This document shows positions 378 through 44,297 of a stretch of 64,000 bases of DNA, piece after piece. Position 1 is the stretch's first letter. Each line of letters begins with the position of its first letter. The DNA is taken from positions 1 through 64,000 of the IMG/VR virus record IMGVR_UViG_3300005340_000038; one strand, 5' to 3'. The notes beneath the pieces were generated by a model. The model saw only the letters and a list, made by a program, of their open reading frames with translations. It was not told where the DNA came from and ran no database searches. The DNA is from a virus. The position numbers were made by a program, and so were the translations under genes.

Positions 378-386
378 ATTTACCTC

Positions 387-3050: not shown

Positions 3051-3080
3051 CGTTATCCTCTATATTGCCCCTGCAATGGG

Positions 3081-4880: not shown

Positions 4881-4904
4881 CTCAATTTCCTTAGTAGGTA
4901 AGGG

Positions 4905-13592: not shown

Positions 13593-14528
13593 TCACTCGA
13601 CCTGACCTTGCGCAAAGTCAGATTTTTTATTCTGCGCTGACTCAGAGAGCGACTCAACGAGAAGATTTTTCACAGCTTGGCTCTTGATCTCAGGCTTAGC
13701 TTGGACGAGATGCATCCCGAATTCATTTTTTGAATTCTCTAGTGACGCCCAATCGATATCTTTTCGCCTAATGAGAGGCGTGTCAAAGTGACCCCAAGTA
13801 TACCGAATAACATGTTGCGGACGCTTGAACCTACGCTTCGTCTCAACGACATACGGCCACTCTCTCTCAAGGCTACGTGCCATTCTGAGCCTACCGTCAC
13901 CTTGATATAGTTCTGTCATATTGCCTCCTTTCATCGTCATCGTCGTCATTTTGTCTATGAGAAAGATATTCGTTAGTATTGTACATAATCCCATAGATAA
14001 GACTTGAAGACACAAATCTGTATCTTCGTTGTATCGCCCTCTCCATCTTACACTCATATTATTTAATATCAATAAACATGAATAGACGTGGACATTTAAA
14101 GTAAATGCGTTAATGCTAGTTTTATCTTTTGCGAAAAACGTATAATTCATTCCCGCTATGCCAATATTCTCATATCGATCTACAAACTCTTCTATAGCTG
14201 AGAATGCAGGCCCTGATGCACATTCTATTCTCCTTGTTTTGTATCTTCTCCGAATCCTCCTAATGTTGTCATCTAGAATCCAATGCCTATCATGTCCTGA
14301 ATCTTTTGAATGCTCCCAAATCCAATTTCTAGCAGGTATTGAACCCAATCCTAAGTTACTAAATGGCAATGTCAAGATATGATGTTTAGATATAGATTTT
14401 CTATACAAATGCTCTTCTTGCGGCTCTACTACAATGTAGAACGGCACATTGTCTTTTTCTAAAAAATTAGCAGTCAGAGGTTTCTCATACCTCCCTTTCG
14501 ATACTATATAAATAGGATATTTAGTCAT
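13593..14528 (-). CDS. TET-associated glycosyltransferase-like (TAGT) enzyme
   Basis: 311 residues, GT-A-like. N-terminal strand YPIYIVSKGRYEKPLTANFL, a PARN turn near 66, the metal-binding HWILDDNIRR (Asp86-Asp87) and a later W-RGRYNEDTDLCLQVL (Glu168-Asp169 as likely catalytic/acceptor-site acids) are the signature of TAGT enzymes. In phages these add sugars to hydroxymethylated pyrimidines in DNA. It overlaps no gene, and follows the tandem ParB gene by 3 bases. AT-richer than the terminase genes, hinting at transfer. The base-hydroxylating or hydroxymethylating partner is not in this window. Confidence 0.75.
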   Translation of the reverse strand: MTKYPIYIVSKGRYEKPLTANFLEKDNVPFYIVVEPQEEHLYRKSISKHHILTLPFSNLGLGSIPARNWIWEHSKDSGHDRHWILDDNIRRIRRRYKTRRIECASGPAFSAIEEFVDRYENIGIAGMNYTFFAKDKTSINAFTLNVHVYSCLLILNNMSVRWRGRYNEDTDLCLQVLSMGLCTILTNIFLIDKMTTMTMKGGNMTELYQGDGRLRMARSLEREWPYVVETKRRFKRPQHVIRYTWGHFDTPLIRRKDIDWASLENSKNEFGMHLVQAKPEIKSQAVKNLLVESLSESAQNKKSDFAQGQVE

Positions 14529-15599: not shown

Positions 15600-18035
15600 C
15601 TACTTCCCTGTCCCTGGACTGCTTGACATACCACCTGATGCCTTACTCACTAGCACCGTTGACGTGTTGCTATATACATATTCACCACCGCTTGTGCGGC
15701 CTCTTGCCTGCCACCGGTGTGGGCCATTCGATACAAACTCGGTATTCCATTCGATTGCATACGGCGGGTCGATATCCTCATCACCGTAATCCGCATCATC
15801 CATCAGAAATGTCACTCCGACAATATCGCCGGTAGCTGTGACCGTGATAGGTATATCCTCAACATCATTAAACATCGCACCGTCATGAGGGGCATCGAGT
15901 GCAACCGATGGCTGCGAAACTACAACTGGCATCGCTGAGACTTCAGACGAGTTCGTACTCTCAGCACCGTTATCAGATGATATAACATAATAGTATGTTA
16001 TATCATTTGATACATCATAATCATTATATAATGTCCCGCCAACTCTAGCAATCTCAGTGTATGGGCCGCCCTGGATCGTGCCCCGCTTGACATGATAACT
16101 CGTCGAGTCGCCTACTTCTGACCATCCAATCGTAATCACGCCGCCACTTGCCGATGCGGTGACGGTTTGAGGTGCTACGGGCAGGTTCGACTGGATCTCT
16201 GGCATCGCGCTAACTTGAGAAGAAACAACACTTTCTGCGCCATTGCGTACAGTGATGATGACGTAGTAATAGGTCGTGCCGTTGGTGACAGAGCTATTGG
16301 TATACTGGTTGATCGAGGGCTGTGCAATCTCGGTGTAAGGGCCACCCGAGACGGTACCGCGCTTGACACGGTAAAATGTTGCGCCTGCGACGCTGTCCCA
16401 CGACAGAGCGACCTGGCCGTTACCTGCCATAGCGACAACATTACTAGGAGCGGGAGGTATCGTCGGCGGGTCACAGGTCGTCGTCACGCTAGTTCCATAG
16501 GTCGAGCCGATGCGATCCGTACTACATGCGCTGAGATGAAGCGCGCCTATCGTCGTGCCGTCGGTAGCCAGAATGCGGGCATTAGAGAGCGTGTCAGGCG
16601 TGAGGTCACCACCTGAGTAGAAACGCGGTCGCCAATCCTCATTGAGTGACCCCGCATCACAGTTGCACAGAGCGCGCCAGGCATCGAGCGTAGAAAAGTC
16701 GGCATCGCTCGCTTGCCCCGATTTGTTCCACGCGCCCACGCGATTGGTTGGCGTGACAGACGGGCCGACCCAGTAGATGTTACGGTCTACGCCTGTCGCA
16801 TCGCCAAATGTACTGCGCGTGTGCACCGCGCCATTGCCGTTGTTGACGCTATTGCCGACCATGCAGAGGTTGTACTGAGCGGTGAGCGGCGTGCCCTGGT
16901 GGAGTAGCATGCATGTGGCGACATCAACGATGGTGTTATGTGTAAAGCTACCGGCGTTGCCTGATGTCTCAAGGCGATAACCAAGCGGCCAGCCATTGAT
17001 GACGTTGTAGCGGTAGGTGTTGCCATAGGCGCGAGAGCCGTTATAGATGGCGGCACGGTCTATTTCGTCGGAGTTACCGAGCACAGTGAATTCATAGCCG
17101 ACTGCATCGACGATAGGCTTATTGCTGATGTAGTTGTATTCAGCAATATTACTCTCTGCGCCGTTTTCGATGTAAATACCATGATTTGACATGCCGCTCA
17201 GCGTGCCAAGCGCCGAGCAGGTTTGCGCGTCGAGCGACTCGATGGCGTTTTGCCGAATGGTGATGCCGGTTGACTCGCCTGAGACGTGGATACCTGTCAC
17301 GGTCGCCTTGCCATCGCTGCCTACCGCACATATGCCGTTCTGAATGCCGTTGTTCTCAATCGTGCCGTCCTTGATACCCGCAACGCGAATGCCCTCTACG
17401 ATATAGCCGTAGATCGTATTGTCCTTGATGACGACATTACGAATCCATTTTTCATCAGGGCAGGTATTCTGCCCGCTATCGCACTGATTCGCGGTGTTAT
17501 CGATGTTGATGACGCGCGATTTCTCATAGCTCACGGGGCCGCTCGATGTGCCCCAATTTGTGAACGTGTTGCCCTGAATGGTGATGTTTCGGCTATTGGT
17601 CGCAGACGTCGTATTGATCATCGAGAGCGCGAAATGGCTTGTGGTTTTGCCCGTACAAGCGAATGTCAGCCCCTGGATGGTGACGTTGTTATTGTTCGCG
17701 AGATTGATTGACCCCTGAAAATTCCCCAGGTTGCCGTTGCATAGGATGGGCACATGACCCGGAGACGGTTCAATCACAATGGGATTGCCGTCGCATCCCG
17801 ATTTCGTGAGAGTCGCTTGCCCGGAATACTCACCCGTCGAGGACATGATACGGATATGGTCACCACATCCTAACGTGCTGAGGTTAAATGCGTTTTGGAT
17901 GCTGCAAAACGGCGAGGATGCAGAGCCGAGGCCGGGGCAGGCGTTGTCTCGGTCCACATAAATATCAGAGGCACGCGCCAGTCCGGTGCAGGCTAGCATC
18001 ACGATACAGAGGGTGATATAGGCATATCGTTGCAT
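15600..18035 (-). CDS. Exported beta-helix protein with FN3 and Ig-like domains
   Basis: 811 residues. Signal peptide MQRYAYITLCIVMLACTGLARAS with cleavage after ARA. Then a right-handed parallel beta-helix (about 25-510; repeated N-ITIQGN, NVVIKDN, GTIENN turns and cysteines), two fibronectin type III domains (about 530-710; PxxVxASxxxGxVTxxWxxV and YYYVI) and a C-terminal Big-type Ig domain (ALDAPHDGAMF). Several Cys pairs suggest oxidation outside the cytoplasm. Ribosome site AGAGGCACAGCG. Substrate unknown; polysaccharide binding or cleavage is plausible. Confidence 0.8.
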   Translation of the reverse strand: MQRYAYITLCIVMLACTGLARASDIYVDRDNACPGLGSASSPFCSIQNAFNLSTLGCGDHIRIMSSTGEYSGQATLTKSGCDGNPIVIEPSPGHVPILCNGNLGNFQGSINLANNNNVTIQGLTFACTGKTTSHFALSMINTTSATNSRNITIQGNTFTNWGTSSGPVSYEKSRVINIDNTANQCDSGQNTCPDEKWIRNVVIKDNTIYGYIVEGIRVAGIKDGTIENNGIQNGICAVGSDGKATVTGIHVSGESTGITIRQNAIESLDAQTCSALGTLSGMSNHGIYIENGAESNIAEYNYISNKPIVDAVGYEFTVLGNSDEIDRAAIYNGSRAYGNTYRYNVINGWPLGYRLETSGNAGSFTHNTIVDVATCMLLHQGTPLTAQYNLCMVGNSVNNGNGAVHTRSTFGDATGVDRNIYWVGPSVTPTNRVGAWNKSGQASDADFSTLDAWRALCNCDAGSLNEDWRPRFYSGGDLTPDTLSNARILATDGTTIGALHLSACSTDRIGSTYGTSVTTTCDPPTIPPAPSNVVAMAGNGQVALSWDSVAGATFYRVKRGTVSGGPYTEIAQPSINQYTNSSVTNGTTYYYVIITVRNGAESVVSSQVSAMPEIQSNLPVAPQTVTASASGGVITIGWSEVGDSTSYHVKRGTIQGGPYTEIARVGGTLYNDYDVSNDITYYYVISSDNGAESTNSSEVSAMPVVVSQPSVALDAPHDGAMFNDVEDIPITVTATGDIVGVTFLMDDADYGDEDIDPPYAIEWNTEFVSNGPHRWQARGRTSGGEYVYSNTSTVLVSKASGGMSSSPGTGK

Positions 18036-18045
18036 CGCTGTGCCT

Positions 18046-21000
18046 CTAGTTGGGGATATGGTTCCAGATAAATTGACTGGTAGTCGCAGTCGGTGATATG
18101 ACCGGCGTGCCCCACCCCGCGATAATGACCTTGTTTACTGTCGGTGCAACGGTCGTATAGTTCACTCTAAAGCCATCGTCTGTGTAGGCGTTAAGCGTCC
18201 CGCTGACGATGACAGTCCCGCTATCGTTGAGTATCTCGTAGAAGCGATCCGCCACACGCGACCGCGTAACGGTAGGGGATACATCGTCTTTTTCAAGGAA
18301 TGATGCGGTGGTATTCGTCCCGGAGGCATCGCTGAACATCAGGCTATACGCACCCGCATTGCTATTGTCGATCACGTTCGCCGTGGTCATCGATGCGCCA
18401 ATGCCCCGGATGGCTAGGGGCTTAAAGCTGAACCCGCCATGATTGGAAAGACCTGTCGTCGTTGGCGTATCAATGATTTGTATCTCAGGGGTGGATGTCG
18501 GTGCCATGTCAAAGGCGAGGAAATAGAGCGAGTGGTCCTGGCTCACGACATTAGACCGCACAGAGAACCCCTGCGAGGTAAACGACTCGACTGAGGCTCT
18601 CAGGATATAGCTATAACACCCCGATGTCGGCACGGTCCAGGCATTACTAGTATCGATAACCCCATAGATGTCTGTGGGGTTAGAGGCCAGCGTAGACCTG
18701 ACGCCATAGGCTGATTGTGTAACGTTGGCTCCGTCATTCGCTGCGAACCCGAGCGATTGCCGGTAGTTCGTTTGTGACAGTGGCCCCAGCGTGCTTTGCA
18801 GCGATGCGCTCGCGGCGATGAGGAAGTTGGCTTCAAAGCCCACGTTGTTGACGAGGGTCGTGCCGCCGGTCGTCGTATTCATGATCAAGCCACCAGCGAA
18901 TGTAGCTTTGATGTCAGTGCCGCCATAGAAATCGACGATCATTTGATACGGCGCGGCTGCGGCTTGCGACCAACTAAGCTCAATGCCGTCTGTCACGTAT
19001 CTCGACACAGCCGCAATGCCCTGCGTCGTAGCATCAACGGCGGCATTCTCCATGCGGATGATGGCATTGTCGCCAGAGGCGCGGCGTGTAGCAACAGTGG
19101 CACTGGCGTCTTTGCTCGCTGCCCCGATGTACCACTGGTGCCCCTGGTTGTCAGCACATCCATACGATATGCGGAACGGAGCTACTGTAGAATTGGTGGA
19201 CGTAGCCGACGATACCGTGATACATACGGCTGATGGCGTACCTATACCGGGGATAGTAATCGACTGCGTACCCACCACGGTAGATGCGGATTGCCGTTTA
19301 TGCTGCACGACCAGAGGCGATGGAGGTGCAACAACGGGCTGTGCCTCAATCGCGCCGATGTCGCATGCGCCGCCGGACGGCTTGGGACGATATCCACCGG
19401 TAAAATCCGTGGAGTAGCCCGTAACGCACGTACCCGCGTCACGCGCTGGGCTGAGCGCACCCAGGCCGAAGTTGCCGCTCGAAGGGCTAAGCCAGAGCGG
19501 GTTAGCCGTCAGGTTATGGTCTTGCGTAATGCCAGAGCCAGTAATGGCCCCGCTGCTGTTTCCGTACATGATGGTATTAGACACAGTAGTAGACGTGACG
19601 CCAGAGCCGACGAATATGCCCCACTGACTATTGTTGCCGATGGAGTTGTAGTAGAGTTGTTGCGTGCTCACGCCTGAATCAACGAGGTTGACACCGGATA
19701 ATGTATTGGCATAGATGAGATTGTTATAGAAAATGTTGTTCGAGCCCTCGTCGATGAGAATACCATTTTGCCCGTTATTACTAATCCGGTTGCGGAAATA
19801 AACGCCGTTGCTGGGTGATGATGTGGCCTCATTGAACAGATAGAGGCCGTTTTGGGTATTGGATTGAATCGTGTTGTCAAAAATCGTGTTATTGACACCA
19901 CTTACGCCTATACCCGTGCGATTGTGATGGATATAGAGGCTCGATAGTGTATTGTCGCTAGACCCTGCCCGCAGATGAACGCCGCCACCTAGAGCTGCGT
20001 TGGCAACCTCAAAATTCTCCAAGATGAGATGGTCTGCTGAACTACCGGTCGTGCCTTCATACCCCTCGGCCACGACATTATCACCCGTTACGTGAGCGCC
20101 ATCGAACAGCAGATAGCCGCCGCTGCCGCTCACGCGCACATAGATCGAGTTGTCCGTGATCGTCAGAACATGCAACCCCGAGTTGGGGCGCACGATAACA
20201 TTGGCGTTGTCTGCTACCAGAAGCGAGTAAATACCTGAGTCGGTGGCATCGTTACCAAATTTGCTAGCAATCGTGAGATTTTCGGCATACGTACCAGAAT
20301 TGATAATGCATTTGTCGCCTGGAGATGCGAGGGCATTGATGCAATGCTGGATCGTAAGGAAAGGGGTTCCCACATCGCCATTATTACTATCGCTACTGCC
20401 CGTTTTGGCAACATAAAAGGTGTGGATGGTTGGTCCGCCGCCGCCTCCACCGCCACCACCCCCACCTCCTGTAGAGCCTCGCTCATAGGCACCTGCGTCA
20501 TACTTGGAGCCGACAGGGCGTGCACCGCCTGTAATATCAGTAGTGATGCCACCGACCTGATTGTAGGCATCAACCGCCGCATTAGTCCCAGACTTGAGGG
20601 AAAAGTCGTTGCCTGCTGCGTTGTTGAACATTGCTGATGAGCCTGTGATATTCCCTGATACACAGCTCCCACTTTGGCAGATATTGTTTTGAACAAGGTC
20701 CGACAAAGTCGTGTTCTTGTCGCATGCTGCTATACCAGCGCAGCCGTTCGGGTTAGCGAAACCTTCAGAGTTGTTATAGCACGTATTATGGTAAGCGCGC
20801 GATGTATCATCATGCAGAGATAGACACCACGAAGTATTTCCAGCTATGACGTTATTATATGCCGTTACGCCCCTGCCAATAGAGAGCGCGTCGCCTCTGA
20901 CGATGCACCCGTTAGGGTCTGTGCACCCATAACACTTATCGGGGTGCGTGACCTTGCTAGTTAAAATGAGATTGTTGCGGATAATGCCATTCGCTAATCC

Positions 21001-21912
21001 GCCAGGCCCATTCACCCCATCATCGCGGCCATTAGAGAAAGCTCCTAAATCATCATTCATCGGGTTGTCGTGGATATAATTGCCATCGACAATAAAATCG
21101 TGGGCACGTTCCTTGATGTCAATCGCCTCTTTGCGTGTACCCTTAATCTCATTGCGGAGAATCTGGAAATTATAGCTCCCCATCTTTGATTCAGTAGAGT
21201 CAGAGATGTAGATACCCTCGCCCGACCCACCATCTGGGCAGTCAGGAACCTCACCACTATCCTGAATCAGATTGTCCGAAATTTCAAAGTCGTGGGGCTC
21301 AGCCCCTGAAACTGTCCCGCTATCGTCGCTATTGGCCCTATCAACTTTAATGCCATTCCAGTCATTCTTTTCGATCCAATTCCATCTAAAGATAAAATGG
21401 TCAGCCCCATTGCGGAGACGAATGCGGAACAATCTTTTGAAATGAATGTGCTCAACAATGAACCAATCTCGATTGTCCCAGTTTGGGTCTAATTTGCCTT
21501 GATATGTGCAGCAAAAATCCCACTGAATAATCGGCATTGCACCGGAACCAAATGACCCAAATATCGTATAGTTGCCAGATGTGCCAGAGGGCATAATAGT
21601 GAACTTGGGGTCTGAGTTGGTCCAAACAGACCCGCGCTCAAAGAGCATGCAATCGCCAGGTCCCCACTTAGTCCGCATTTTAGTGAACGTACTACATTTC
21701 TGAGATGCGCTATCGCAAGAATTATTATCACTCGCACCCGATAGCGTCGAAAAATACCACTTATCGCCATGGCACTGAGATAAATCCGTATTTTGCCCAT
21801 TGTCGGCCCAGGCGCTGAATGGTGGAGCAGCATGAGTTTTAATGGCACAAATGCAGAGCGCGAGTATAGCGAGAAAGATAAACTGTGAGATGACGACAAT
21901 GCGGCGCGGCAT
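18046..21912 (-). CDS. Exported double beta-helix protein with poly-glycine hinge
   Basis: 1288 residues. Signal peptide to about residue 28 (ending KTHA|APPF). First beta-helix about 35-478, closing with GGARPVGSKYDAGAYE; then twelve glycines (482-493); a second beta-helix about 497-865 opening with TFYVAKTGSSDSNNGD and closing with GACDIGAIEAQ; then a beta-rich ~420-residue C-terminal part. R-x-G...DIGAxE endings are typical of choice-of-anchor/beta-helix surface proteins. First helix is Cys-rich. Stop lies 10 bases before the next gene. Confidence 0.8.
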   Translation of the reverse strand: MPRRIVVISQFIFLAILALCICAIKTHAAPPFSAWADNGQNTDLSQCHGDKWYFSTLSGASDNNSCDSASQKCSTFTKMRTKWGPGDCMLFERGSVWTNSDPKFTIMPSGTSGNYTIFGSFGSGAMPIIQWDFCCTYQGKLDPNWDNRDWFIVEHIHFKRLFRIRLRNGADHFIFRWNWIEKNDWNGIKVDRANSDDSGTVSGAEPHDFEISDNLIQDSGEVPDCPDGGSGEGIYISDSTESKMGSYNFQILRNEIKGTRKEAIDIKERAHDFIVDGNYIHDNPMNDDLGAFSNGRDDGVNGPGGLANGIIRNNLILTSKVTHPDKCYGCTDPNGCIVRGDALSIGRGVTAYNNVIAGNTSWCLSLHDDTSRAYHNTCYNNSEGFANPNGCAGIAACDKNTTLSDLVQNNICQSGSCVSGNITGSSAMFNNAAGNDFSLKSGTNAAVDAYNQVGGITTDITGGARPVGSKYDAGAYERGSTGGGGGGGGGGGGPTIHTFYVAKTGSSDSNNGDVGTPFLTIQHCINALASPGDKCIINSGTYAENLTIASKFGNDATDSGIYSLLVADNANVIVRPNSGLHVLTITDNSIYVRVSGSGGYLLFDGAHVTGDNVVAEGYEGTTGSSADHLILENFEVANAALGGGVHLRAGSSDNTLSSLYIHHNRTGIGVSGVNNTIFDNTIQSNTQNGLYLFNEATSSPSNGVYFRNRISNNGQNGILIDEGSNNIFYNNLIYANTLSGVNLVDSGVSTQQLYYNSIGNNSQWGIFVGSGVTSTTVSNTIMYGNSSGAITGSGITQDHNLTANPLWLSPSSGNFGLGALSPARDAGTCVTGYSTDFTGGYRPKPSGGACDIGAIEAQPVVAPPSPLVVQHKRQSASTVVGTQSITIPGIGTPSAVCITVSSATSTNSTVAPFRISYGCADNQGHQWYIGAASKDASATVATRRASGDNAIIRMENAAVDATTQGIAAVSRYVTDGIELSWSQAAAAPYQMIVDFYGGTDIKATFAGGLIMNTTTGGTTLVNNVGFEANFLIAASASLQSTLGPLSQTNYRQSLGFAANDGANVTQSAYGVRSTLASNPTDIYGVIDTSNAWTVPTSGCYSYILRASVESFTSQGFSVRSNVVSQDHSLYFLAFDMAPTSTPEIQIIDTPTTTGLSNHGGFSFKPLAIRGIGASMTTANVIDNSNAGAYSLMFSDASGTNTTASFLEKDDVSPTVTRSRVADRFYEILNDSGTVIVSGTLNAYTDDGFRVNYTTVAPTVNKVIIAGWGTPVISPTATTSQFIWNHIPN

Positions 21913-23027
21913 TACTGGTCACTCCACGAGTCATGAAGCACCTCGGCCACGGCGCTGATAAGCTGGACATGAGAGGTATCTGCTGTGGTACCCGAGCCCT
22001 GCACCGCGCGGACGTAGAGCATGTCCCCCTTAGCGCACGGGCCATTGGGTAGAAACGCGGCAGTTGTGAACTTAAAATGCTGGTTCTGGCTCACGGGAAA
22101 GGAGACAAAACTGACTGTGATAGTCGGAGCCGCAGCCCACAGCGAATTGTATACATCGCCTGACCCTCGGCACTGCGCTGCGATATCCCAAACCATTGTC
22201 GTCGATGTGAGTGCGATATCCGATTTAGCATGTATCGTAATGGTCATGGGCTGATTGGGCGCAATCGATTGACGGAGCGGCGAATTGAAATGGAAATGTG
22301 AATTGATCGACGTTGGGCATGTCACAATGATCGACTCAGGGCCTCCCGAAGCCAGCGCAATCTCAGACCGCGCGCATGCAGAACTCGCGATGTACCATGA
22401 CCCCGCTGGGAATATATAGGGGTGATACTCACGCGCGCCGAGGAATAGCGTGGTTTGGCCTGTGGAGGTCGTTGTGCGAAGCGGTGCCCCTGCACCGAGA
22501 ATGTTCCCAACCTGGCCATTAGGTATGTTGAGGTTAAATCCCCCATCTCGACCCCCGGTGATGCTACTAATCGTGCAACCATTCGTCGGATCAAACCAAA
22601 ATCGGCACTCATTCTCTTCGTTTGGGCCGATAGCAAAATAATTGGCAGAGTCTACCGCAGTTGATATGCGGGGATTGACGAGGAAATTCTCTTCCAACCC
22701 TTGAGCCGGTGCACCTCCACTACCCCCACCACTCTCTAATACCCATGCGCTATTGATGCATAGATAGCTCTGCGCCACACCCGCATTGTTGACCTTGCGA
22801 GACGTACCCGTCGTGCACGCACCGGTAGGCACAGCGCTATACATCGGCGGGACTTTGCTGGAGCCGTCTGTGTTCCACACGTCGCCGCCCTGAACATTCG
22901 CGCCCTGCTTAGGCGGGGTAAACGTCTGAGCGTAAGCCGTATTAGGGAATCGTAGTACGACCGCCAAACTCAATAATATCAGTACCCGTATGCCAGAGCA
23001 TAAGGCTGGAGAATCGCGTAATTTCAA
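21912..23027 (-). CDS. Exported protein, unknown, tail-fibre-like features
   Basis: 371 residues with signal peptide MKLRDSPALCSGIRVLILLSLAVVLRFPNTAYAQ (cleavage AYA|Q; given in full it exceeds 20, key residues are LILLSLAVVL then AYA). Mature part begins TFTPPKQGANVQGGDVWNTDGSS, then a Gly/Ser stretch and beta-rich segments. It overlaps the upstream gene by 86 bases, which is long; a start nearer LILL is possible. Stop/start overlap with the 1288-residue gene by one base. Confidence 0.65.
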   Translation of the reverse strand: MKLRDSPALCSGIRVLILLSLAVVLRFPNTAYAQTFTPPKQGANVQGGDVWNTDGSSKVPPMYSAVPTGACTTGTSRKVNNAGVAQSYLCINSAWVLESGGGSGGAPAQGLEENFLVNPRISTAVDSANYFAIGPNEENECRFWFDPTNGCTISSITGGRDGGFNLNIPNGQVGNILGAGAPLRTTTSTGQTTLFLGAREYHPYIFPAGSWYIASSACARSEIALASGGPESIIVTCPTSINSHFHFNSPLRQSIAPNQPMTITIHAKSDIALTSTTMVWDIAAQCRGSGDVYNSLWAAAPTITVSFVSFPVSQNQHFKFTTAAFLPNGPCAKGDMLYVRAVQGSGTTADTSHVQLISAVAEVLHDSWSDQ

Positions 23028-24310: not shown

Positions 24311-26752
24311 CTACGCATCGGGTTCAATTAGCTCAATGTTAGTAACGAGGACGGTCGGTGTAAATATAATGCTATCGATCAGTACCCCTCCATATTGGGC
24401 AGGAGGTGTTAGCCCAATAAACATCGTAGGAGGTATAACCCTGATCCTGGCAAACCCCATCGCAACAATTTCATCTATCGTCATGAATGGCGAGCTGACA
24501 CCAATCACGGCAGGCGATAGGGGCACCTGCTCGATGAGATTGAGTGCCTGAGTAGGCGCGCCTATGGAGATGTTGACAGGCGTGAGGTAGATGGGCCGAT
24601 GATACGTCATTTCAGGGACGATAAGAGATATCGTCGCAGGCGACAAGTCTACTGTCTCGGCAATAGAGACAGATGGCGCTGACAGGCTAATCAGTACAGG
24701 CGTGAGGAAAAACTCGAATAGTTCCTCGAATGACAGCGGCGGGACAGCCAGAGATATAACGATAGGTGATAGGCCAATTGTGCAGAGGACAGTAGTGGGT
24801 GGCGCGATGAGACTGATTGGAACGGGAGACAAATCAATCGTCTCATTGAGCCCAAAATTGCGCGCGTAAACGCCAATAGTTACCGGGTCACACTCGATAT
24901 ATTCGTCAAGGCTCACCATACTAGGAACAGAGAGGGAAACAGAGGCGGGCGCTAGGCTCATAGTCTCAGAAACAGTTACTGTCGGGCTCGTCACACTGAT
25001 CGGAATAGGAGATATGTCAATCATCTCATAGCGATCTGTGCTCGGGATAGTCAGCGATAGCATGACAGGCGTTAAATGAAACAGGAGTCCGGCCAGCATG
25101 CCAAGCGTCGGAATATTGACGGTTATGACCGCGGGGGTGAGATCAATCGCTTCAGACACATGAGTAGTCGGCAAGATCAGGTCAATAGAGACAGGTACGA
25201 GATCGATTGTTTCATAGTAGTCTGTTGCAGGCACGCCTAGAGAGATAACCGGGGGTGTTAGGTAAAATACCTCACTAAACGGCATGGCGGGAACAGACAG
25301 GGATATCGTAGTCGTATTGAGTGAGATCGTCTCGTTAACATGCGTTGCTGGCGAAGACAGATTGATCCTGACCGGCGTCATCGTAAACGCTTGCAGAGGC
25401 CTGAACCCAGGAACGCTGACATATATGGACGCTGGCCCCAGATTCATGGACTCGAAAAATGTCGTCTGCAACGGAGAGACAGAAAGATTAGCGGGGCCAA
25501 ACCCGAGAGACTCGGAAATGCTCGTAGACGGGGCCGATAACGAGATGACAACTGGGTTCAGTTGGAACACAGAGGATGTGAGCAGCCCAGGGACATTGAC
25601 AATAATATTGACAGGCGTGAGGGGTATCGCCTCGCTGATGCCTACGGCTGGGCTGTCAACTGTGATTACTGCCGGAGCCATCAGCACTTGTTCAGCTCGC
25701 CCAAGCGTCGGGACAGTCAAATTAATGTCTGCGGGGCTTAGCGTGATGGACTCAGAAATGCTCACAGCGGGCGGCGTTAGCGAGATTACAACAGGCGTCA
25801 AATTGATGCTGACAGGCTGCTCAGGCTCGTCAAACCCGATGTCCCAGGTTGCAAACGTCTCGCCGTCTACGTCGTCATCGAAGGGGTAAATCGAGTCGCC
25901 GCTGAGATTGGTACCATACCCTAACGCGCCGGTATCGGAAAGACTTAGATGGTAGTTTTTATTGCTGACATCGACGAACGTGAAAGTCTGGCTGTGCCTA
26001 CTATGCGCGCCTGGAGCTGTTGTATCGCCCGAGGAATTGTAGTCGCCATTCGTTCCGGTAACTAGGAATCCACCATTCGTATTGCTAACCCCGATACAGT
26101 TATAGCAATACATCGACGACGTATTTGACGCAGCAAACCCATAGTCGCCATTGCTAGCTGAGACGCTGTTGTAGATATAGGCAACATGCCCTGAACTGGC
26201 GTGGAACCCGCGCTTCTCATTATTGTGGGCTAGGCAATCTACGAAAACATAAGTCGCGGTGCCCGCACATGAGAACCCGTGGTTTTTTTCCGTCCCAGAA
26301 TTAACGCAATTATTGGCAATACAACCAATAACCCTATTACCAGTCCCTGCACATCTATAGCCATGGCGCTCGTTTGTCGAGTTATTTGTAAGCTTAACAT
26401 CCAGGTCTTCAGCAGCGGCATAGCTCTCATTGCCGAGGTTGACAACATCGGAGTCGCCCGTGTAGTAGAGCGCGAATCCGGTGCCATAGACGCCAGTGTG
26501 CTTATGGCCTACGGCTGCTCGAATTTTGCGGAAGTGGGTTGCGTCTGTGGTTCCACCGATAGGGAGCCAGCGCTGATTATAGCTTGCTGAATCTGTATAC
26601 CCCTCAATGGTATACGAGACATTATTGCTAACCATGTTGACATCGGTATCAGACTCGTAGACAGCGAGGTCTGTGTAGTCGCGACCGTGGCCACTCGCGC
26701 CAAATGTGTTGACGACCTCATTGACGCCATTTTTACGGGCTGATACCATCAC
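24311..26752 (-). CDS. Beta-helix protein with 20-residue repeat shaft
   Basis: 813 residues, no signal peptide. Residues 1-~300 form a beta-helix-like head (NNSTNERHGYRCAGTGNRVIG, CLAHNNEKRGF). Residues ~316-777 hold about 23 copies of a 20-residue unit, roughly xxLTPVxISLSxPxxxxSEx; the key proline falls at 320, 340, 360, 380 ... 540 without slip, later with three 1-2 residue inserts. A fibrous beta-solenoid or beta-prism shaft is likely. Gene order among fibre-like genes suggests a virion fibre; the function is unproven. Confidence 0.75.
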   Translation of the reverse strand: MMVSARKNGVNEVVNTFGASGHGRDYTDLAVYESDTDVNMVSNNVSYTIEGYTDSASYNQRWLPIGGTTDATHFRKIRAAVGHKHTGVYGTGFALYYTGDSDVVNLGNESYAAAEDLDVKLTNNSTNERHGYRCAGTGNRVIGCIANNCVNSGTEKNHGFSCAGTATYVFVDCLAHNNEKRGFHASSGHVAYIYNSVSASNGDYGFAASNTSSMYCYNCIGVSNTNGGFLVTGTNGDYNSSGDTTAPGAHSRHSQTFTFVDVSNKNYHLSLSDTGALGYGTNLSGDSIYPFDDDVDGETFATWDIGFDEPEQPVSINLTPVVISLTPPAVSISESITLSPADINLTVPTLGRAEQVLMAPAVITVDSPAVGISEAIPLTPVNIIVNVPGLLTSSVFQLNPVVISLSAPSTSISESLGFGPANLSVSPLQTTFFESMNLGPASIYVSVPGFRPLQAFTMTPVRINLSSPATHVNETISLNTTTISLSVPAMPFSEVFYLTPPVISLGVPATDYYETIDLVPVSIDLILPTTHVSEAIDLTPAVITVNIPTLGMLAGLLFHLTPVMLSLTIPSTDRYEMIDISPIPISVTSPTVTVSETMSLAPASVSLSVPSMVSLDEYIECDPVTIGVYARNFGLNETIDLSPVPISLIAPPTTVLCTIGLSPIVISLAVPPLSFEELFEFFLTPVLISLSAPSVSIAETVDLSPATISLIVPEMTYHRPIYLTPVNISIGAPTQALNLIEQVPLSPAVIGVSSPFMTIDEIVAMGFARIRVIPPTMFIGLTPPAQYGGVLIDSIIFTPTVLVTNIELIEPDA
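24422..25807 (-). repeat. 60-bp-period coding repeat (20-residue units)
   Basis: About 23 units, conserved in protein pattern but diverged in DNA: hydrophobic-Ser/Thr-Pro, then alternating I/V-x-L/V, then Pro, then an acidic Glu near the end. Exact spacing over the first 12 units argues for structural selection on unit length rather than recent duplication. Confidence 0.85.
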
Positions 26753-26758
26753 ATCATC

Positions 26759-27193
26759 CTAGATGTAAGTCTGCGTCATTTTGTCAAACACGAGCCCATC
26801 GACATCGAACACATGCGCATCGAAGAGGTACAGCCCTGTCTCCGAATCAACATGGAGGAACGGCTGATAGACATCGCTCACGTCATAGAGCCGGTCAAAA
26901 TCGAGCGGGTGGAGTTCATTGAGCCGCTCAAACGGGATGCAATAGCGGCGCTTGTCGTACCACGTCTCGCCCTCATAGAGCGGCTCCATCAGGGCTTGCA
27001 TGTCGTAGTCGTCCAGCCCATCGATGCGGAGGTAGAGCAAATGCCCCATCTCGCGGAGACCTACGCCATTCGTTGGCTCACGCACGGTGATGATGTCGCC
27101 TGATAGCCCTCGTTCGCCACCCGCGTCACCCGCATAGCTTGGGATGAGCAACCCCGCTTCCCAGACTCTAAATTGTTGATAGGTCTGAGGCAT
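26759..27193 (-). CDS. Hypothetical protein
   Basis: 144 residues, MPQTYQQFRVWEAGLLIPSYAGDAGGERG. Rich in acidic and aromatic residues (DGLDDYDMQ, YEGETWYDKRRY). Starts three bases after the stop of the membrane gene region and ends 6 bases before the repeat protein. No family recognised; the position suggests a fibre-associated or assembly role. Confidence 0.5.
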   Translation of the reverse strand: MPQTYQQFRVWEAGLLIPSYAGDAGGERGLSGDIITVREPTNGVGLREMGHLLYLRIDGLDDYDMQALMEPLYEGETWYDKRRYCIPFERLNELHPLDFDRLYDVSDVYQPFLHVDSETGLYLFDAHVFDVDGLVFDKMTQTYI

Positions 27194-27398: not shown

Positions 27399-27968
27399 CT
27401 AATCGCTCGATGACACATCGTTTTGCAATGCGTCAATTGCGTTCTGGAGCGTCAAACTGTCGGGCAGATTCGGGTTGATATGAGAGTATCCATTCACTGC
27501 GGTTTTGATTGCCGCTAAACTTCCAGCCGCAGCTAAGTCAGTCTTATATTGCTCCCACTGTGTAATCATCGCATTCGTTTTGCCATTCGTCGCATTAAAC
27601 AAACTGATTAGGCGCTTGAGTAACGCTTTAAACACTTTGCGCCACCTCGGATGGTTATTGATAGAAGTCAGAGCCTGTGTTGCGTCAAGAGCATCGCGCC
27701 AGGCGGCCTCTGCTGGGGCAAAGGCGTCAATCTCGCCCTGCGTCGCGTTGCGGATGGTGTTGCTGCCAGGTAGGGCAATCTTGGCAAACCCGAGTACGCG
27801 CATCGGACCAAGTACGCCGTCTACGACCTCGGTAACATCGGGCCCATCGGTTAGTGTTGGGTCTACTAAAACACCGAAGTAGGTAGGGTCGGACTCAGAG
27901 AACGATTGCCCCGCCACTGATATTTTGAGGACTTCGCCGCCATCGATGCGATAGAGTGCCGTGGGCAT
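27399..27968 (-). CDS. Hypothetical, fibre-associated-type protein
   Basis: 189 residues from MPTALYRIDGGEVL. The GGAAGGAG site lies inside the stop region of the previous gene, fixing this start; the open frame extends upstream but is not coding there. An N-terminal beta part (GGEVLKISVAGQSF) and a helical C-terminal (FKALLKRLISLFNATNGK, LQNAIDALQND) resemble tail-fibre connector or assembly proteins. Confidence 0.55.
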   Translation of the reverse strand: MPTALYRIDGGEVLKISVAGQSFSESDPTYFGVLVDPTLTDGPDVTEVVDGVLGPMRVLGFAKIALPGSNTIRNATQGEIDAFAPAEAAWRDALDATQALTSINNHPRWRKVFKALLKRLISLFNATNGKTNAMITQWEQYKTDLAAAGSLAAIKTAVNGYSHINPNLPDSLTLQNAIDALQNDVSSSD

Positions 27969-27969
27969 G

Positions 27970-28203
27970 CTAACTCCTTCCACAAACGCGGATACGGTCG
28001 CCGACTTGGCATTCGTTGGGGAACGGGCCGTCATGGTCTGTCGATCCCGCGAGATGAATGCGGTAAACCGATGACCCTGCATAGGTTTCGATGATTTTAG
28101 GAAGCCCCGCATTGGGGCCATCAAACTGCCCATCTGTATCTTTGCTCCCATCACAGCCTGTAAAATTAATAGTAAAATTGCCCAAATAGAGAGGTGTATA
28201 CAT
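27970..28203 (-). CDS. Small hypothetical protein
   Basis: 77 residues, MYTPLYLGNFTINF..., with an SSVYRIHLAG segment and a DRIRVCG end. Ends in a TAG that overlaps the ribosome site of the next gene. Beta-rich; function unknown. Confidence 0.5.
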   Translation of the reverse strand: MYTPLYLGNFTINFTGCDGSKDTDGQFDGPNAGLPKIIETYAGSSVYRIHLAGSTDHDGPFPNECQVGDRIRVCGRS

Positions 28204-28214
28204 ATATTATCCTG

Positions 28215-31200
28215 CTATTGCTCAAAGACACCGATATCAGGAGCCGAGCCCAAATAGATATATGAGATGCCCTCGCCCTGTGTCCATGTGATGGCAGGGC
28301 TTACTGTAATAGTCCTTGTCGATATATCGATATTGGTAATCCTGGCCGTTTTTTTCCCGGTCTGCGTCATGATGAGGTCGCCCTTGTACCCCGGTATACC
28401 ATACCCATCAGAAAAACACCGCGCATCGCTGACCACAAACGTTGATGTCGGGCTTGAGGCTGTCGCAGATGTAATGGTCGCCAAAAACACTCCTGCATTG
28501 AGCTGAGCAGAGGACGTCAGGTGAAAGTCGCTATCGTTGACAGAGGCAAACGTTACGGCTGAGGTGATATTATTTGACCAGTTATTGGGGAGGCTGGACT
28601 GCAAAGAAGAAACAGAAAGCACAGTACCGAGATTGGTTGGGTTTGGATCAGGGTCGCCGCCATACCTAACATCATCTATGATGTCATTCCCGCGCCAGAC
28701 ATTCTCGGAGCGTCCGTTGATTTCCTGACCTCCAAACCAGATATCGCTCTTCCCCAACGAATTGTATATATTGTTCAGAAAAATATTATTCAATACATCA
28801 AGATAAGCGGGGGAAGAACTGTTCCTATACATACCATTCTGGTCAGTATTATAAATAACATTATGTGCCCAGCACTGTTCCTTAGTGCCTTGGTCAAAAG
28901 AAATTTGGCCATTATTATTGAGTGAATTTCGGCGAATGATATTACCGAGTGCTAAAACATACTGAGTAGAAGATTGCGCACCAGATGCATTACCTGTTCC
29001 AGTCTGAATGCCTGACTGATCCCCAGCGGCTCTAGAGGCATTGGTCCCATAGAGCCAGCCATTTTGCGTGGCAATAATTCCTGAATCGAGAATTATATTA
29101 TCTTCCAAGACATCAAATTGAGATGAATACAGAGCCACATTTGAATGCCACGTATTGCGAATTTTATTTCGTCTGTAAATATTATGATGAGTTGGGTTGC
29201 CTACGCTAGAAGCTGCGTTAAGAGCGACATGCCTGCAATTGCCAATATCATTATCCTCAACTAAATTGTGATCAGCGCCACCAAGTGGGCGAAAACAATC
29301 CTGGTACCCCTTGCAATTATTTGTGCAGGATTGTGTTGTGATGTCGTTAGCAACCGACTGATTACCACGGATCAAATTATAATCACCGCTCCAGCGTATA
29401 GCGTTGCCGCCACCAGTGATATTTGTTTGGGTGAGCACGTTATCGCGTATGATATTGCGATTGCCTGAATCAATCAGCACTGCCGTTCCACTCACATTAT
29501 TGATATGCATGCCCGCAATGACGATATATGATTTTCCAGTCAGGTCTGCCCCATTGCCGCTTGTTCCGGCCCCTCCGCTGCCATCTCTCAGGATGATGGC
29601 GGTCTCTCCAGGATACGCTAAGTAGGAAATATACGCGCTGGCATTGCCGTTGTTGGTGGGTTGAATTTGCTGATAATAAGTACCGCCTCTAATCCACACC
29701 GTCTGCCCGGCTTGGAGTGCGCCATTCGCCTTGCTGATCGTTTTCCAGGGCTGGCTGATCGTTCCGGGATTGCTATCACTGGCTGATGCCGATGTCGAAA
29801 CGTAATACTGAGTGCCCGTGTTGACGACGACAGTCGTAGAATCGCTAAAGGGTACACCCGTATCTCCCTGGCAGGTAATGATGTAATTGGTTGTACTAGT
29901 TGGAGATACCGCAAACGATCCGTTCGTTGACTTAGCCCCTGTCCATGCACCCGCCGTGGTCGCCGCACAAGAACTAGCGTACATCGATGACCATGTCAGG
30001 GTTGTACTTTGGCCTGTTGTAATAACGCTAGGATTAGATCCAATCGTAGCAACGGCATTAACCGTGCCGCCACCACTTGGCGATGACTGGGTGACAGTAG
30101 AAGTACGGAAGGAGGGCGTTGTAGATATATTCCCAGATGTGTCATATGTCCACATGCGATAGCAGTAAGATGTATTCGGGGTCAGCCCAGAATCTGTAAA
30201 TGTAGTTAGCGAGGTATCGCCTATAAATATCCACGGAGAACAGGAATCTGTCGACCCACTGCAAACACCCAAACAATGCTGAACATGATAATGATCGACT
30301 GCCACATTATCGGTGGCTGCGCTCCAATTGAGATCGATGGCTGTAGAGGGAGACGTAGAGTTTGGCGCTGCCGATATGGTCGTGACAATACCAGGGGGCT
30401 GCGTGTCGGGGGCAATAATATTATTTATCGTAAGCGAAACGCCGGCAGAGGTCGCAGTGAGTCCAGAGCCATTATACGCCTTAGCCGTCAAGAGGGCGGT
30501 GCCATTCGCCCTTTGGGTAGTATTGAATGATAGAGCCCAGGGAGCTATTGTCACCTCGCCAAGCAGGGCAGTCCCCCAATAATATTCAACCGCGACAATG
30601 CCAGAGACGGTGTCCGCTGGATTAGACGTGAGATTAATGGTACCGCTATACGTTCCGGCGCTAGGCGATGTGATGGATACCGTAGGGGCCGAATTGTCTA
30701 CAGTTATGGCTACAGGTTCGGCAAAAACACTATTGCCGACATTATCGAGCAATTTGATCTTCGCCTGGAGTACCGTACCATCTGCCTGAGTGAGTGGATA
30801 GGTGCCCTCAAACGGGCTTGTACTATCTATTATGCCAACCGCACTATCGTTTATATAGAGTTGGGCTCCCGACACGCCAGAATTCTCATCAGACATCTCA
30901 ACACTCCATGGTAGTGTGTTGGAGACATATTGGTCAGATTCTGGCGAGGAGCTATCAATAGATGGCGGAGTGACATCTATCATGACCATTTGTGCTGATG
31001 AGTCTGTATAATGATTATCTACATCTAGGCAACGGACCTTCACCGTCACGCTGGCATCAGAGGTATAGGGTGCGGTCCAAGTACCAGAAAATGGGGGTAT
31101 AGTATCAGGCGTTCCCACGGGAGACCCATCAGCCAAGAGTTGCATGGATTGGATCGGCACAGATGAATCACACGTCGCATTCCAGTCCACAGTACCGCCT

Positions 31201-31403
31201 AGATAGTAGGGGTTTGACCCCACCTTGTCCGGTAAAGTCAGAACCACGTTGCCCGGCGTAGGTACGATCGTCATGACCGACGGGTAGCTTATAGCAGGCA
31301 TTCCACCCGGGAAACTGGGAGTCGCAGCATTAGCCCTGGCGTAATAATCTACGCAGCACAAAATGAATAATGCGACAGCCAACGTGGCGCTGAACACTCT
31401 CAT
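28215..31403 (-). CDS. Exported Ig/FN3/beta-helix protein
   Basis: 1062 residues. Signal peptide MRVFSATLAVALFILC to ANA|A (about residue 27). Domains: two or three Big-type Ig domains (about 90-330; VRCLDVDNHYTDSSAQMVMIDV, SITSPSAGTYSG), one FN3 domain (about 335-440), a PKD/Ig-like linker, then a long right-handed beta-helix (about 545-1062; TQYYVSTSASASDSNPGT to the closing APDIGVFEQ). Cys-rich. Similar in plan to the other three helix proteins; substrate unknown. Confidence 0.8.
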   Translation of the reverse strand: MRVFSATLAVALFILCCVDYYARANAATPSFPGGMPAISYPSVMTIVPTPGNVVLTLPDKVGSNPYYLGGTVDWNATCDSSVPIQSMQLLADGSPVGTPDTIPPFSGTWTAPYTSDASVTVKVRCLDVDNHYTDSSAQMVMIDVTPPSIDSSSPESDQYVSNTLPWSVEMSDENSGVSGAQLYINDSAVGIIDSTSPFEGTYPLTQADGTVLQAKIKLLDNVGNSVFAEPVAITVDNSAPTVSITSPSAGTYSGTINLTSNPADTVSGIVAVEYYWGTALLGEVTIAPWALSFNTTQRANGTALLTAKAYNGSGLTATSAGVSLTINNIIAPDTQPPGIVTTISAAPNSTSPSTAIDLNWSAATDNVAVDHYHVQHCLGVCSGSTDSCSPWIFIGDTSLTTFTDSGLTPNTSYCYRMWTYDTSGNISTTPSFRTSTVTQSSPSGGGTVNAVATIGSNPSVITTGQSTTLTWSSMYASSCAATTAGAWTGAKSTNGSFAVSPTSTTNYIITCQGDTGVPFSDSTTVVVNTGTQYYVSTSASASDSNPGTISQPWKTISKANGALQAGQTVWIRGGTYYQQIQPTNNGNASAYISYLAYPGETAIILRDGSGGAGTSGNGADLTGKSYIVIAGMHINNVSGTAVLIDSGNRNIIRDNVLTQTNITGGGNAIRWSGDYNLIRGNQSVANDITTQSCTNNCKGYQDCFRPLGGADHNLVEDNDIGNCRHVALNAASSVGNPTHHNIYRRNKIRNTWHSNVALYSSQFDVLEDNIILDSGIIATQNGWLYGTNASRAAGDQSGIQTGTGNASGAQSSTQYVLALGNIIRRNSLNNNGQISFDQGTKEQCWAHNVIYNTDQNGMYRNSSSPAYLDVLNNIFLNNIYNSLGKSDIWFGGQEINGRSENVWRGNDIIDDVRYGGDPDPNPTNLGTVLSVSSLQSSLPNNWSNNITSAVTFASVNDSDFHLTSSAQLNAGVFLATITSATASSPTSTFVVSDARCFSDGYGIPGYKGDLIMTQTGKKTARITNIDISTRTITVSPAITWTQGEGISYIYLGSAPDIGVFEQ

Positions 31404-31760: not shown

Positions 31761-32351
31761 TTAACCTAAATTCTCAAGGCCAAGACTCAGCACGGCCTGT
31801 GCCCACACTTGGCGTTCTACTTCGAGTTCATTCTCAGATGCGTCGATCTCGACCCACCCCGGCATTGTGCTCATCGAGCGGTATATCTCGCGGACTCTTT
31901 CGAGGTATCCAGCAGAGCGCGTAAATTCAGAATGACGGTGCCTATCCTGCCTTTTGATGGATAGGTCAGGCTCCAAATCGAGATAAATCAGAAGGTCAGG
32001 ACGCAGCGCCCATGCCTGGTGGAGCTGATAAATCACTTGAATATCGACCCCCTTCGCACCCTGATAGGCCATCGTCGAGTAGTAGTAACGGTCCTGTATG
32101 GCAATGTCGCACGGGGTATAGTCCTGTATCCCTGCCTGCGCCGCTCGGTCGGCCATATACAGCCCCGTCTCCACCCACGGGTCGAGGCCCTCAGCATATT
32201 TAGCGAGGCGACCGAAGTAACTCCAGCTCGGCTCTTTGTGCAACACGACACGTAGCCCAGACTGACGCAACCGCTGCATGAGGCGCCTGGCCTGCGAGGT
32301 CTTGCCGGAGCCGTTGAGCCCCTCAAATACGATGAGCCGTTGATTGGTCAT
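31761..32351 (-). CDS. tmk: Thymidylate kinase
   Basis: 196 residues from MTNQRLIVFEGLNGSGKT. Walker A GLNGSGKT, the DRYYYST (DR-Y) motif near 100, a LID with RQDRHRHSEF, and the YLDLEPDLSIKRQ segment mark a dTMP kinase, which phosphorylates dTMP to dTDP for phage DNA synthesis (and for any modified thymidine pool). I start at the ATG that follows the GTAGGGCT site rather than the upstream frame, which overlaps a membrane gene. Confidence 0.85.
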   Translation of the reverse strand: MTNQRLIVFEGLNGSGKTSQARRLMQRLRQSGLRVVLHKEPSWSYFGRLAKYAEGLDPWVETGLYMADRAAQAGIQDYTPCDIAIQDRYYYSTMAYQGAKGVDIQVIYQLHQAWALRPDLLIYLDLEPDLSIKRQDRHRHSEFTRSAGYLERVREIYRSMSTMPGWVEIDASENELEVERQVWAQAVLSLGLENLG

Positions 32352-32355
32352 AGCC

Positions 32356-32553
32356 CTACTCTGATGCCCTAGTGCCAGTCCCGGGATGCGAATAGAATCC
32401 CACAGCCGTCGCACCTGCCAAGACAGCGCCCACAAGGAGCCGTGCCCATTCAGGGGTATCTGCTGGCATATTGGCAGAGAAGAACCCCAGCACGGCTAGA
32501 ACAAACCCGATCAGCGTCAACACCCACGATGGAATGCCTGTTTGCTCTGCCAT
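32356..32553 (-). CDS. Small membrane protein, holin candidate
   Basis: 65 residues with two helices: WVLTLIGFVLAVLGFF (about 9-25) and LLVGAVLAGATAVGFY (about 38-53), short termini. The pattern and size fit small two-helix holins. Paired with the gene at 32553-32810 through a one-base overlap. Confidence 0.55.
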   Translation of the reverse strand: MAEQTGIPSWVLTLIGFVLAVLGFFSANMPADTPEWARLLVGAVLAGATAVGFYSHPGTGTRASE

Positions 32554-32995: not shown

Positions 32996-35041
32996 TTATG
33001 GCGATACAGTTGCAAGCGCCTGAATGTCCGAATTCGATAGCGACGTGTTATATATCCGCACATCATCAATGAGGCCATCGAATTGCCCCACTGTCGTCGA
33101 GACATTCGCGCCGATAATCAGCGAGTTGGTATTCGTAATCGCCTGCGCGGTCGTCGTATTCGATGCCACGCTAACCCCGTTGACAAATATCGCATGGCCG
33201 CTTGAGCTGGCTCTGCACGCGATGTGATACCACTGGTTGGGATTGAAATTGCTTGAGGCATAAGTCAGCGTGGCATTCCAAGCCCGGCCCATCCCGCACC
33301 GAAGACTATTCTGGTAGAACACGAGGAAATAGCTATTGCTGAAATTCCAATCGCCCTTCATCAGAATCGTGTCGCCAAAGCTGGTATTGGTGTCGAGGGT
33401 ATCCATCTTCACCCATGCCGAGATCGTCATAGCTGTCGAGGGATTCAGCGCGGAGGCATGAGGAATCTGGGCATAGTCATGTGACCCATCGAGCGATATC
33501 GCCTGGCCAATCTTGCCCGTAGTGAATAGCGGGCATCCAAGCAAATCTCCGTTGTAGTTGCCGAATGCGTCATCTGCCGAATTGTCAAACTCGTATTTAG
33601 CGACAGGGGTAGGCACTGAAACCGTAGGCACGGTATCGCCAGCTAATTCATTGAGATAGTTCTCTAAATTGCTGTAGCCGTTCGAAGCTATTTTGGGGCC
33701 ATCAAGGTCATTAACAGGGCTATTAGGGTTGAGACCATGCTGTGTTTCCCACGTATCCGGGATGCCGTCATTGTCAGAGTCAGCAGGAGCCGCAGCACTT
33801 GCGTAGGGAGGGAACTGTACACAGCTCTCAATCGTTATCGGCGGCGGGTTTCCCGTGCCACAGATGCCACCCGTGTTATTATTGACGTACCCGAGGACTT
33901 TATTATCAATGGGATCGCGCTTAGGCACCGTTGCGCCAGCCCGAGCAATGACTTGGGCTTTAGAGGCTACAGCAGTGGTCTCAGTAGGAATAACCGGACC
34001 ACCAGATACACGGTTCGTCGACTGCATCGTGTAGGCCTGTCCCCCGATATCTACCATGGCAAACTCTGACCCCGTCGATGCATCCGGGCGCCTAACCGTA
34101 TGCACATTCCCCTTGATGAAATAATCCGATGCTGCCTGGTCCTCTGGCTTGCATTCCCAACTGCTAGCATATCCACAGCCGACGGTCAGGATATTGGATG
34201 CGCCCCGGTTGAGCCAGTTATATGCAATATCAGCGTGGATAGCATCGTATTCTGCCCAGGCGTAGATGCACTGCGACTCACACATATAGACCACGTTGTT
34301 GATAATCTGCGTGTAATCTGCGCCTACCGTCGGTGTACGCTTGGCGATATTGCTAAACAAATTGTGCAAATACGAGGTGTGTATATCCGACGTCTGCCCA
34401 CCTCCAACCCAACTACCACCTGCCGACCCCGCACCGCCTGCTGAAACCTGTTTGAGCGTCTCCGAGATAAATGACCACTGGAGCGTACAGTTGATATTGG
34501 CTCCGTCGGTTAGCGACGAGCAAGACCAAAAGTCGTCTGTGCTCCAGCCACCCGAGATATGATCGAAGATGACATAGTTTATCCCTGGCCCCTGCCCCGC
34601 AGAAACCCCGTTGGTATTGTCCGTGATGGGAGACGTTCGTCCAGGCCCCCGTATGCGACAATGCCTCACAATGACATTATTTGTGGCCTGAAACCCGAGC
34701 GCCCCGCTGACTGGCGGTCCCTTGATCATAATTCCATCGCCCGGTGCTGTCTGGCATGCTAGCGTCACATTGCTCTTTATGCTACCAATCTGCGAGCTTA
34801 GCGTTATCGTCCCGCCAACTGTAAAGATAATCGTGCGCGTACCCGTCTGCTGTAAACAACTCCGCAAGCTACCCGTACCGCTGTCATTGAGGTTCGTCAC
34901 TTTACAGACAACACCACCACGACCCCCAGATGCAAACCGGCCAAATCCCTCAGCCGTAGGGAACGCGAGTTGCTGTGCTTGAGCCGGAACCCATACTGCC
35001 AGGAGACATATCGCCAATATTAAGCCAGAAAAATACCGCAT
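32996..35041 (-). CDS. Exported pectate-lyase-like protein with LamG-like domain
   Basis: 681 residues. Signal peptide MRYFSGLILAICLLAVW to AQA|Q. N-terminal FPTAEGFGRFASGGRGG, KVTNLNDSGTGSLR, TIIFTVGGTI and NVIVRHCRIRGPG match polysaccharide lyase family 1/pectate-lyase beta-helices. A calcium-type DSDNDGIPDTWETQHGLNP (thrombospondin-3-like) linker follows at about 425, then a LamG-like lectin domain to the end. Likely degrades or binds a pectin-like or other host glycan outside the cell. Starts directly at the upstream stop (TAGATG). Confidence 0.85.
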   Translation of the reverse strand: MRYFSGLILAICLLAVWVPAQAQQLAFPTAEGFGRFASGGRGGVVCKVTNLNDSGTGSLRSCLQQTGTRTIIFTVGGTITLSSQIGSIKSNVTLACQTAPGDGIMIKGPPVSGALGFQATNNVIVRHCRIRGPGRTSPITDNTNGVSAGQGPGINYVIFDHISGGWSTDDFWSCSSLTDGANINCTLQWSFISETLKQVSAGGAGSAGGSWVGGGQTSDIHTSYLHNLFSNIAKRTPTVGADYTQIINNVVYMCESQCIYAWAEYDAIHADIAYNWLNRGASNILTVGCGYASSWECKPEDQAASDYFIKGNVHTVRRPDASTGSEFAMVDIGGQAYTMQSTNRVSGGPVIPTETTAVASKAQVIARAGATVPKRDPIDNKVLGYVNNNTGGICGTGNPPPITIESCVQFPPYASAAAPADSDNDGIPDTWETQHGLNPNSPVNDLDGPKIASNGYSNLENYLNELAGDTVPTVSVPTPVAKYEFDNSADDAFGNYNGDLLGCPLFTTGKIGQAISLDGSHDYAQIPHASALNPSTAMTISAWVKMDTLDTNTSFGDTILMKGDWNFSNSYFLVFYQNSLRCGMGRAWNATLTYASSNFNPNQWYHIACRASSSGHAIFVNGVSVASNTTTAQAITNTNSLIIGANVSTTVGQFDGLIDDVRIYNTSLSNSDIQALATVSP

Positions 35042-40207: not shown

Positions 40208-40230
40208 TTGCCTCACCCTTCACCATCGCA

Positions 40231-44184: not shown

Positions 44185-44297
44185 GGCTTGCCCTATCCAT
44201 GCAAAGTTACAACGTTGTTCACATGGCATACGGGCAAAATCAGCATGGCCATCATGGTATGCTGAGATACTCGGCCAGTAATAGACTGATGGACTCC

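Follow-up and report, generated by a model that had tools for sequence, protein, structure and literature searches.

The beta-helix of lyases and tailspikes is usually the part of the protein that faces a glycan. A second group of described structures that is relevant here comprises the triple beta-spiral shafts of the adenovirus fibre and reovirus sigma1, the consensus of which, as given in PMC3150272, has hydrophobic residues at positions c, e, g, k and m and a proline or glycine at position j. In another source it is described that isolated peptides of such a shaft fail to adopt the native shaft structure and that the shaft repeats fold once they are fused to a trimerising domain (PMC8869412).

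The window analysed here, which consists of 64,000 nucleotides and corresponds to bases 1–64000 of a 76,361-base IMG/VR virus record of a phage seen so far solely in environmental DNA, contains a gene for an 813-residue protein in which a predicted beta-helix is followed by a long array of repeats (Table 1). Its start codon may be GTG at 26752 or ATG at 26749. The gene is also present on a second contig, which is 100% identical over 10,032 bases (the twin contig, locus L017). The best explanation that we can offer, and which we judge about as likely as not, is that the product is a tail-associated spike or adhesin of the virion, composed of a beta-helix that touches a surface glycan, an ordered oligomeric shaft and a virion-proximal C-terminal end, the spacer in between being exchangeable.

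Table 1 Features of the repeat gene and its conserved upstream partners, in positions of the window
Feature	Position	Strand	Basis
ORF, 813 aa, beta-helix N-terminal part and repeat array	24311..26752	minus	ORF list and translation
N-terminal domain, residues 1–310, predicted right-handed parallel beta-helix	25823..26752	minus	AF2, VIA-align, family alignments
Short junction, residues 311–317	25802..25822	minus	between N-terminal domain and array
Array, residues 318–764, 22 units each some 20 residues long	24461..25801	minus	unit alignment
C-terminal remainder, residues 765–813	24314..24460	minus	degenerate
144-aa gene directly upstream	26759..27193	minus	tblastn among relatives' loci
251-aa gene, second conserved upstream partner	27399..28154	minus	tblastn among relatives' loci

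The N-terminal domain, which is closed by the family motif WDIGFDE, was modelled by AlphaFold2 with a pLDDT mostly above 90 using 31 aligned sequences, and a structure search with this model identified it as a right-handed parallel beta-helix, an assignment that is a prediction. With VIA-align the top Z score was 20.6, and 303 of the 394 chains had a Z of at least 8. The best matches (Z 20.4–20.6) were the glycoside hydrolase BT_1002, a rhamnogalacturonan lyase and the pectate lyase Pel9A (1ru4, Z 20.4), while phage tailspikes were found at a Z of about 17–18, including those of Pam1 (7eea, 18.3), Acinetobacter phage Fri1 (gp49, 6c72) and phi29 (gp12, 3gq8). These tailspikes and Pel9A share the predicted fold with residues 1–310 (Z 17–20) but differ in sequence, identity being about 9–12% over the aligned part, and the structural match covers the N-terminal domain, with the repeat array outside it. 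Foldseek against viral models gave weak beta-helix and pectate-lyase matches, and the Pfam Beta_helix model, which remains below its cut-off with the window protein (13.1 vs 25.9), matches, at E 0.01, 3 of the 31 members of the family. In the proposed spike this domain, being of the kind found in phage tailspikes and polysaccharide lyases, is the part that likely touches a surface glycan.

The array had originally been predicted at 24422–25807 as about 23 copies of an almost exact 20-residue unit. It is indeed present there, and 22 units, with the consensus L[TS]P[VA]xI[S][LV]xxPxxxxxExIx, can be placed in register between degenerate flanks. The periodicity is real, since self-identity at lag 20 amounts to 25.7% over residues 318–777, compared to a maximum of 15.0% in 2000 residue-shuffles examined at lags 5–60. 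From the first unit to the twelfth, the starts follow one another at intervals of exactly 20 residues; the full series of spacings is 20 (eleven times), 22, 20, 20, 21, 20, 20, 22, 20, 20 and 22, which indicates four small inserts instead of the three that were announced. The description as almost exact is justified for the spacing and fails for the sequence, as the pairwise identity of the units is on average 32% (65% for the best pair) at the protein level and 42% at the DNA level. The series of prolines at residues 320 to 540, reported to run without slip, likewise holds for the most part, with a single gap at residue 480, which is a threonine. The most conserved unit positions are P3 (21/22), P11 (20/22), I6 (19/22), L1 (17/22) and E17 (15/22), and a hydrophobic residue occupies positions 1, 6 and 8 in all 22 units. 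The residues that follow the array (765–813) gave no recognised domain in Pfam or PHROGs.

That the DNA of the units has diverged was correctly noticed. Identical residues in different units are specified by the same codon in 427 of 1461 cases (29.2%), where codon usage predicts 28.9%, and identity at third positions is 28.4%. Neighbouring units are no more similar than distant ones along the array, and Tandem Repeats Finder reported no array within the gene. Since the units share residues and not codons, either the duplications lie far back or codon choice has been randomised, and we infer from the one available sequence, the other copy being identical, that selection has held the protein pattern of the array. 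The alternation of hydrophobic residues and the unit length were retained while synonymous sites became randomised.

Structure prediction of the array gave a different result than for the N-terminal domain. In the AlphaFold2 model of the complete protein, nearly all of residues 326–813 have a pLDDT below 50, which could mean disorder, an outcome that the original prediction had named as evidence against a shaft; the composition, on the other hand, is on the ordered side of the hydropathy-charge plot (hydropathy 0.582 vs a boundary of 0.435, net charge 0.06 per residue). The same holds for all six arrays tested, the one in the window included (hydropathy 0.53–0.58), whereas two of the three Ser/Pro spacers tested are below the boundary and the third, from L035, is just above it (0.421 vs 0.415). 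An extended flexible linker, with a regularity that stems from old tandem duplication and compositional constraint, would explain the low pLDDT, the proline content of 12%, the complete lack of lysine and tryptophan, and the occurrence of Ser-rich linkers at the same position in relatives. In view of the hydropathy, and of a hydrophobic alternation and length that survived the randomisation of synonymous sites, we consider such a disordered linker quite improbable.

It was originally suggested that the array may form a new beta-solenoid or beta-prism shaft. A single-chain solenoid in which each unit makes about one coil of 20 residues agrees with the fixed spacing, with the hydrophobic residues that are always present at unit positions 1, 6 and 8, and with a six-unit AlphaFold2 model in which the strands mostly recur at two places of the unit, about positions 5–9 and 17–21. 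The confidence of this model is low (mean pLDDT 49.1, pTM 0.30), as it is in the full-length protein, although this weighs lightly with an alignment of 4 rows or segments. A Foldseek search of the PDB with the low-confidence model gave a best E of 0.71 and no match at E 0.001. Thus, a regular repeat of beta type was found, as foreseen, whereas single-chain modelling yielded no confident fold of the solenoid or prism kind, and we regard the solenoid as unlikely.

In the spike that we favour, the 22 units would form a long ordered spacer, in which each unit contributes two short beta-strands, each opened by one of the conserved prolines (P3 and P11), and one face would carry hydrophobic residues in alternation. 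Such an array probably needs several intertwined chains, most likely three, in order to fold. Because the shaft peptides of a known triple beta-spiral do not reach the native shaft structure in isolation (PMC8869412), an oligomeric shaft would agree with the failure of single-chain prediction, which does not by itself demonstrate it.

The repeat was not recognised in the original prediction, and this agrees with the searches that were carried out in Pfam, PHROGs, NCBIfam, PDB sequences and 50,697 phages, which also gave no match to Ig-like domains or to a known repeat family. In Pfam, only DUF411 touches the array (E 1.3, below cut-off); PHROGs gave no match to the window protein at E 0.01, NCBIfam no model matching the array at E 10, and the PDB sequences nothing above threshold for the repeat. 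Searching the 50,697 phages by tblastn produced nothing for the whole protein or its N-terminal domain, nor for the array of L055 or the tails of L028 and L022, while the tail of L021 matched 4 records of hypothetical proteins. A DNA-pattern search for three P[VA]x[ILV]x[LV]xxP units yielded at least 119 stretches, which among the matches listed were mostly low-complexity frames of the Pro-Val type and were rejected as relatives. Stricter repeat patterns applied to IMG/VR found only the twin contig, or the twin together with L188, an Ala/Pro-rich, low-complexity frame that was judged unrelated. With a pattern designed for arrays of the L055 type, a single low-complexity frame was obtained, and in a search for related loci the window array found only its twin and the L055 array nothing. 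The L055 array resembles that of the window by eye and in BLAST (5e-5), but homology is not clearly supported, since 18 of 60 column permutations scored at least as well, and under four further settings 10, 3, 12 and 61 of 150 did so. A profile containing L055 matched, in 395 genomes of the phylum of L055, only the genome of L055 itself and gave one weak hit (4.5e-4). No description of the repeat was present in the part of the literature that was examined, which was searched with terms other than the letters of the repeat and included passages of PMC8869412, PMC3150272 and PMC9127768.

The N-terminal domain did lead to relatives. Searches with it gave 43 loci, 37 viral and 6 from bacterial genomes, with near-copies counted; 42 of these read past the end of the domain, the remaining one being cut by a contig end. 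Sorting by eye of what follows gave 7 repeat arrays, 9 Ser- or Ser/Pro-rich tails, 19 short tails (under 60 aa) and 7 others. Besides the twin L017, there are six arrays, which are of other kinds (L021, L022, L028, L030, L055 and L058, the last judged solely by eye), and the best self-match lags are 20 for the window, 22 for L055, 23 for L028, 22 for L021, 18 for L022 and 20 for L030. In a tree of 27 rows, of which the bootstrap is not fully settled, L021, L022 and L028 group together (98/92) although each has an array of its own, and L030 and L055 (95/93) likewise carry two different ones. The row nearest to the window, L018, has a tail of 28 residues and weak support (82/86). Presence of an array is clustered on the tree (3 changes vs a shuffled mean of 5.5), so that free swapping is not proven and what is inherited may be the array position, with the type of array in it being replaced. 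In L019, at 4001–4936, an in-frame stop occurs shortly ahead of the point where the beta-helix domain ends, and a Ser-rich tail of great length follows.

That varied arrays occupy this position behind a conserved beta-helix indirectly supports a role as shaft or spacer, at a position that would be exchangeable, as related phages place other arrays or Ser-rich linkers there. A bolder proposal, which we put forward as no better than a tentative one, is that uncultured phages maintain a pool of unrelated beta-repeat shafts of 18–23 residues per unit, which they swap as cassettes behind one beta-helix spike domain, and that the array of the window, one member of this pool, is an undescribed oligomeric beta-shaft in which a glutamate (E17) returns each time at a strand position of inward phase.

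The orientation of the protein may be derived from relatives. In L046, DUF2460 follows the Ser-rich spacer with a score above the Pfam cut-off (35.2 vs 30.4 bits), and in L055 a part of 729 residues after the array has PHROG matches annotated as tail and a Phage-tail_3 match that is below cut-off (19.9 vs 23). The array of L028 itself matches a minor-tail PHROG (8.9e-5). The C-terminal end is therefore probably the one next to the virion, as it is there that relatives run on into tail-type domains; for the window protein, which itself carries no C-terminal tail domain, this polarity is extrapolated from L046 and L055. The opposite arrangement, with the beta-helix end on the virion and the array as a distal, multivalent binding part, would resemble fibres that are anchored by a conserved N-terminus and vary at the C-terminus, and it would fit the conserved N-terminal domain, the variable part behind it and the fact that in the window protein the array is not followed by a domain. 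We give it a low probability, since a lyase- or tailspike-type beta-helix would normally face the glycan, tail-type domains come after the spacer in L046 and L055, and the tail is all but missing in 19 of the 43 loci, which is difficult to reconcile with a part that binds the receptor.

On the minus strand, replication genes (about 44–37 kb) are followed by the cluster with the repeat gene and then by terminase, portal, capsid and connector genes, and the genes searched around the repeat gene included no recognised tail machinery. The connector genes extend to the left end of the record (window 1–387), and the first 3 kb share zero 20-mers with the last 14 kb of the record (L187, record bases 62000–76361), so that the tail module probably lies outside the record. 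Of 56 loci searched by tblastn, duplicates counted, 19 (14 distinct contigs) have the 144-aa gene, which there lies upstream of the gene for the beta-helix, and 14 (9 distinct contigs) have the 251-aa gene, which precedes it; no Pfam family fits either of them. Locus L034 has two matches to the 251-aa neighbour (603–962 and 3016–3528), possibly due to a duplication.

Signal-peptide-like N-termini were observed in five minus-strand neighbours (15600–18035, 18046–21912, 21912–23027, 28215–31403 and 32996–35041), four of which have Ig, beta-helix or pectate-lyase/LamG domains. Such N-termini are unusual for virion parts, and these are perhaps secreted carbohydrate-active proteins. Such neighbours would suit a product that is released or exported by the infected cell as an enzyme or adhesin; unlike them, however, the 813-residue protein has no signal-like N-terminus in a simple hydropathy test, and its relatives are fused to tail-type domains, which makes export very unlikely.

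Other genes of the window may be mentioned briefly. A glucosyltransferase (phrog_842, 1.3e-42) at 13593–14528 and a thymidylate-kinase-like gene (phrog_761) at 31761–32435, both on the minus strand, may point to modified bases in the phage DNA. The replication-initiation O-like gene at 43114–44229 contains 3.7 copies of a 31-bp repeat (43727–43841), possible origin iterons, and the minus-strand ORF at 37940–40216 shows matches to DNA helicases along its length and, in its C-terminal part, to DNA methyltransferases.

Fibre shafts that fold only as oligomers easily escape sequence libraries and single-chain prediction. A conserved spike domain combined with different arrays of similar unit length would be a naturally occurring series of shaft solutions, possibly independent of one another, with which it could be tested whether a unit length near 20 residues is a shared structural rule, and which would supply new rod modules.

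A spike with a repeat shaft is of a known kind, whereas the shaft repeat itself is undescribed in the sources searched. Repeat tails of phrog_12240, a family of unknown function, occupy the same place behind the same N-terminal domain in L022 and L030, but their repeat sequence differs from that of the window protein, which lacks a PHROG match. The triple beta-spiral shafts resemble the array in having two short strands per unit, a conserved proline after a strand and alternating hydrophobic residues, and, with the consensus as given in PMC3150272, positions c, e, g and j match unit positions 4, 6, 8 and 11. No register of the 20-residue unit combines both features of that consensus, the mean hydrophobic fraction being 0.54 with P11 as j and 0.47 with P3 as j, and the array does not conform to this consensus. 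With P11 as j, hydrophobic residues occur at positions k and m (12 and 14) in just 5% and 9% of the units, and with P3 as j it is c, e and g that fail. Finally, each unit of the array has two conserved prolines, where the triple beta-spiral has one turn residue.
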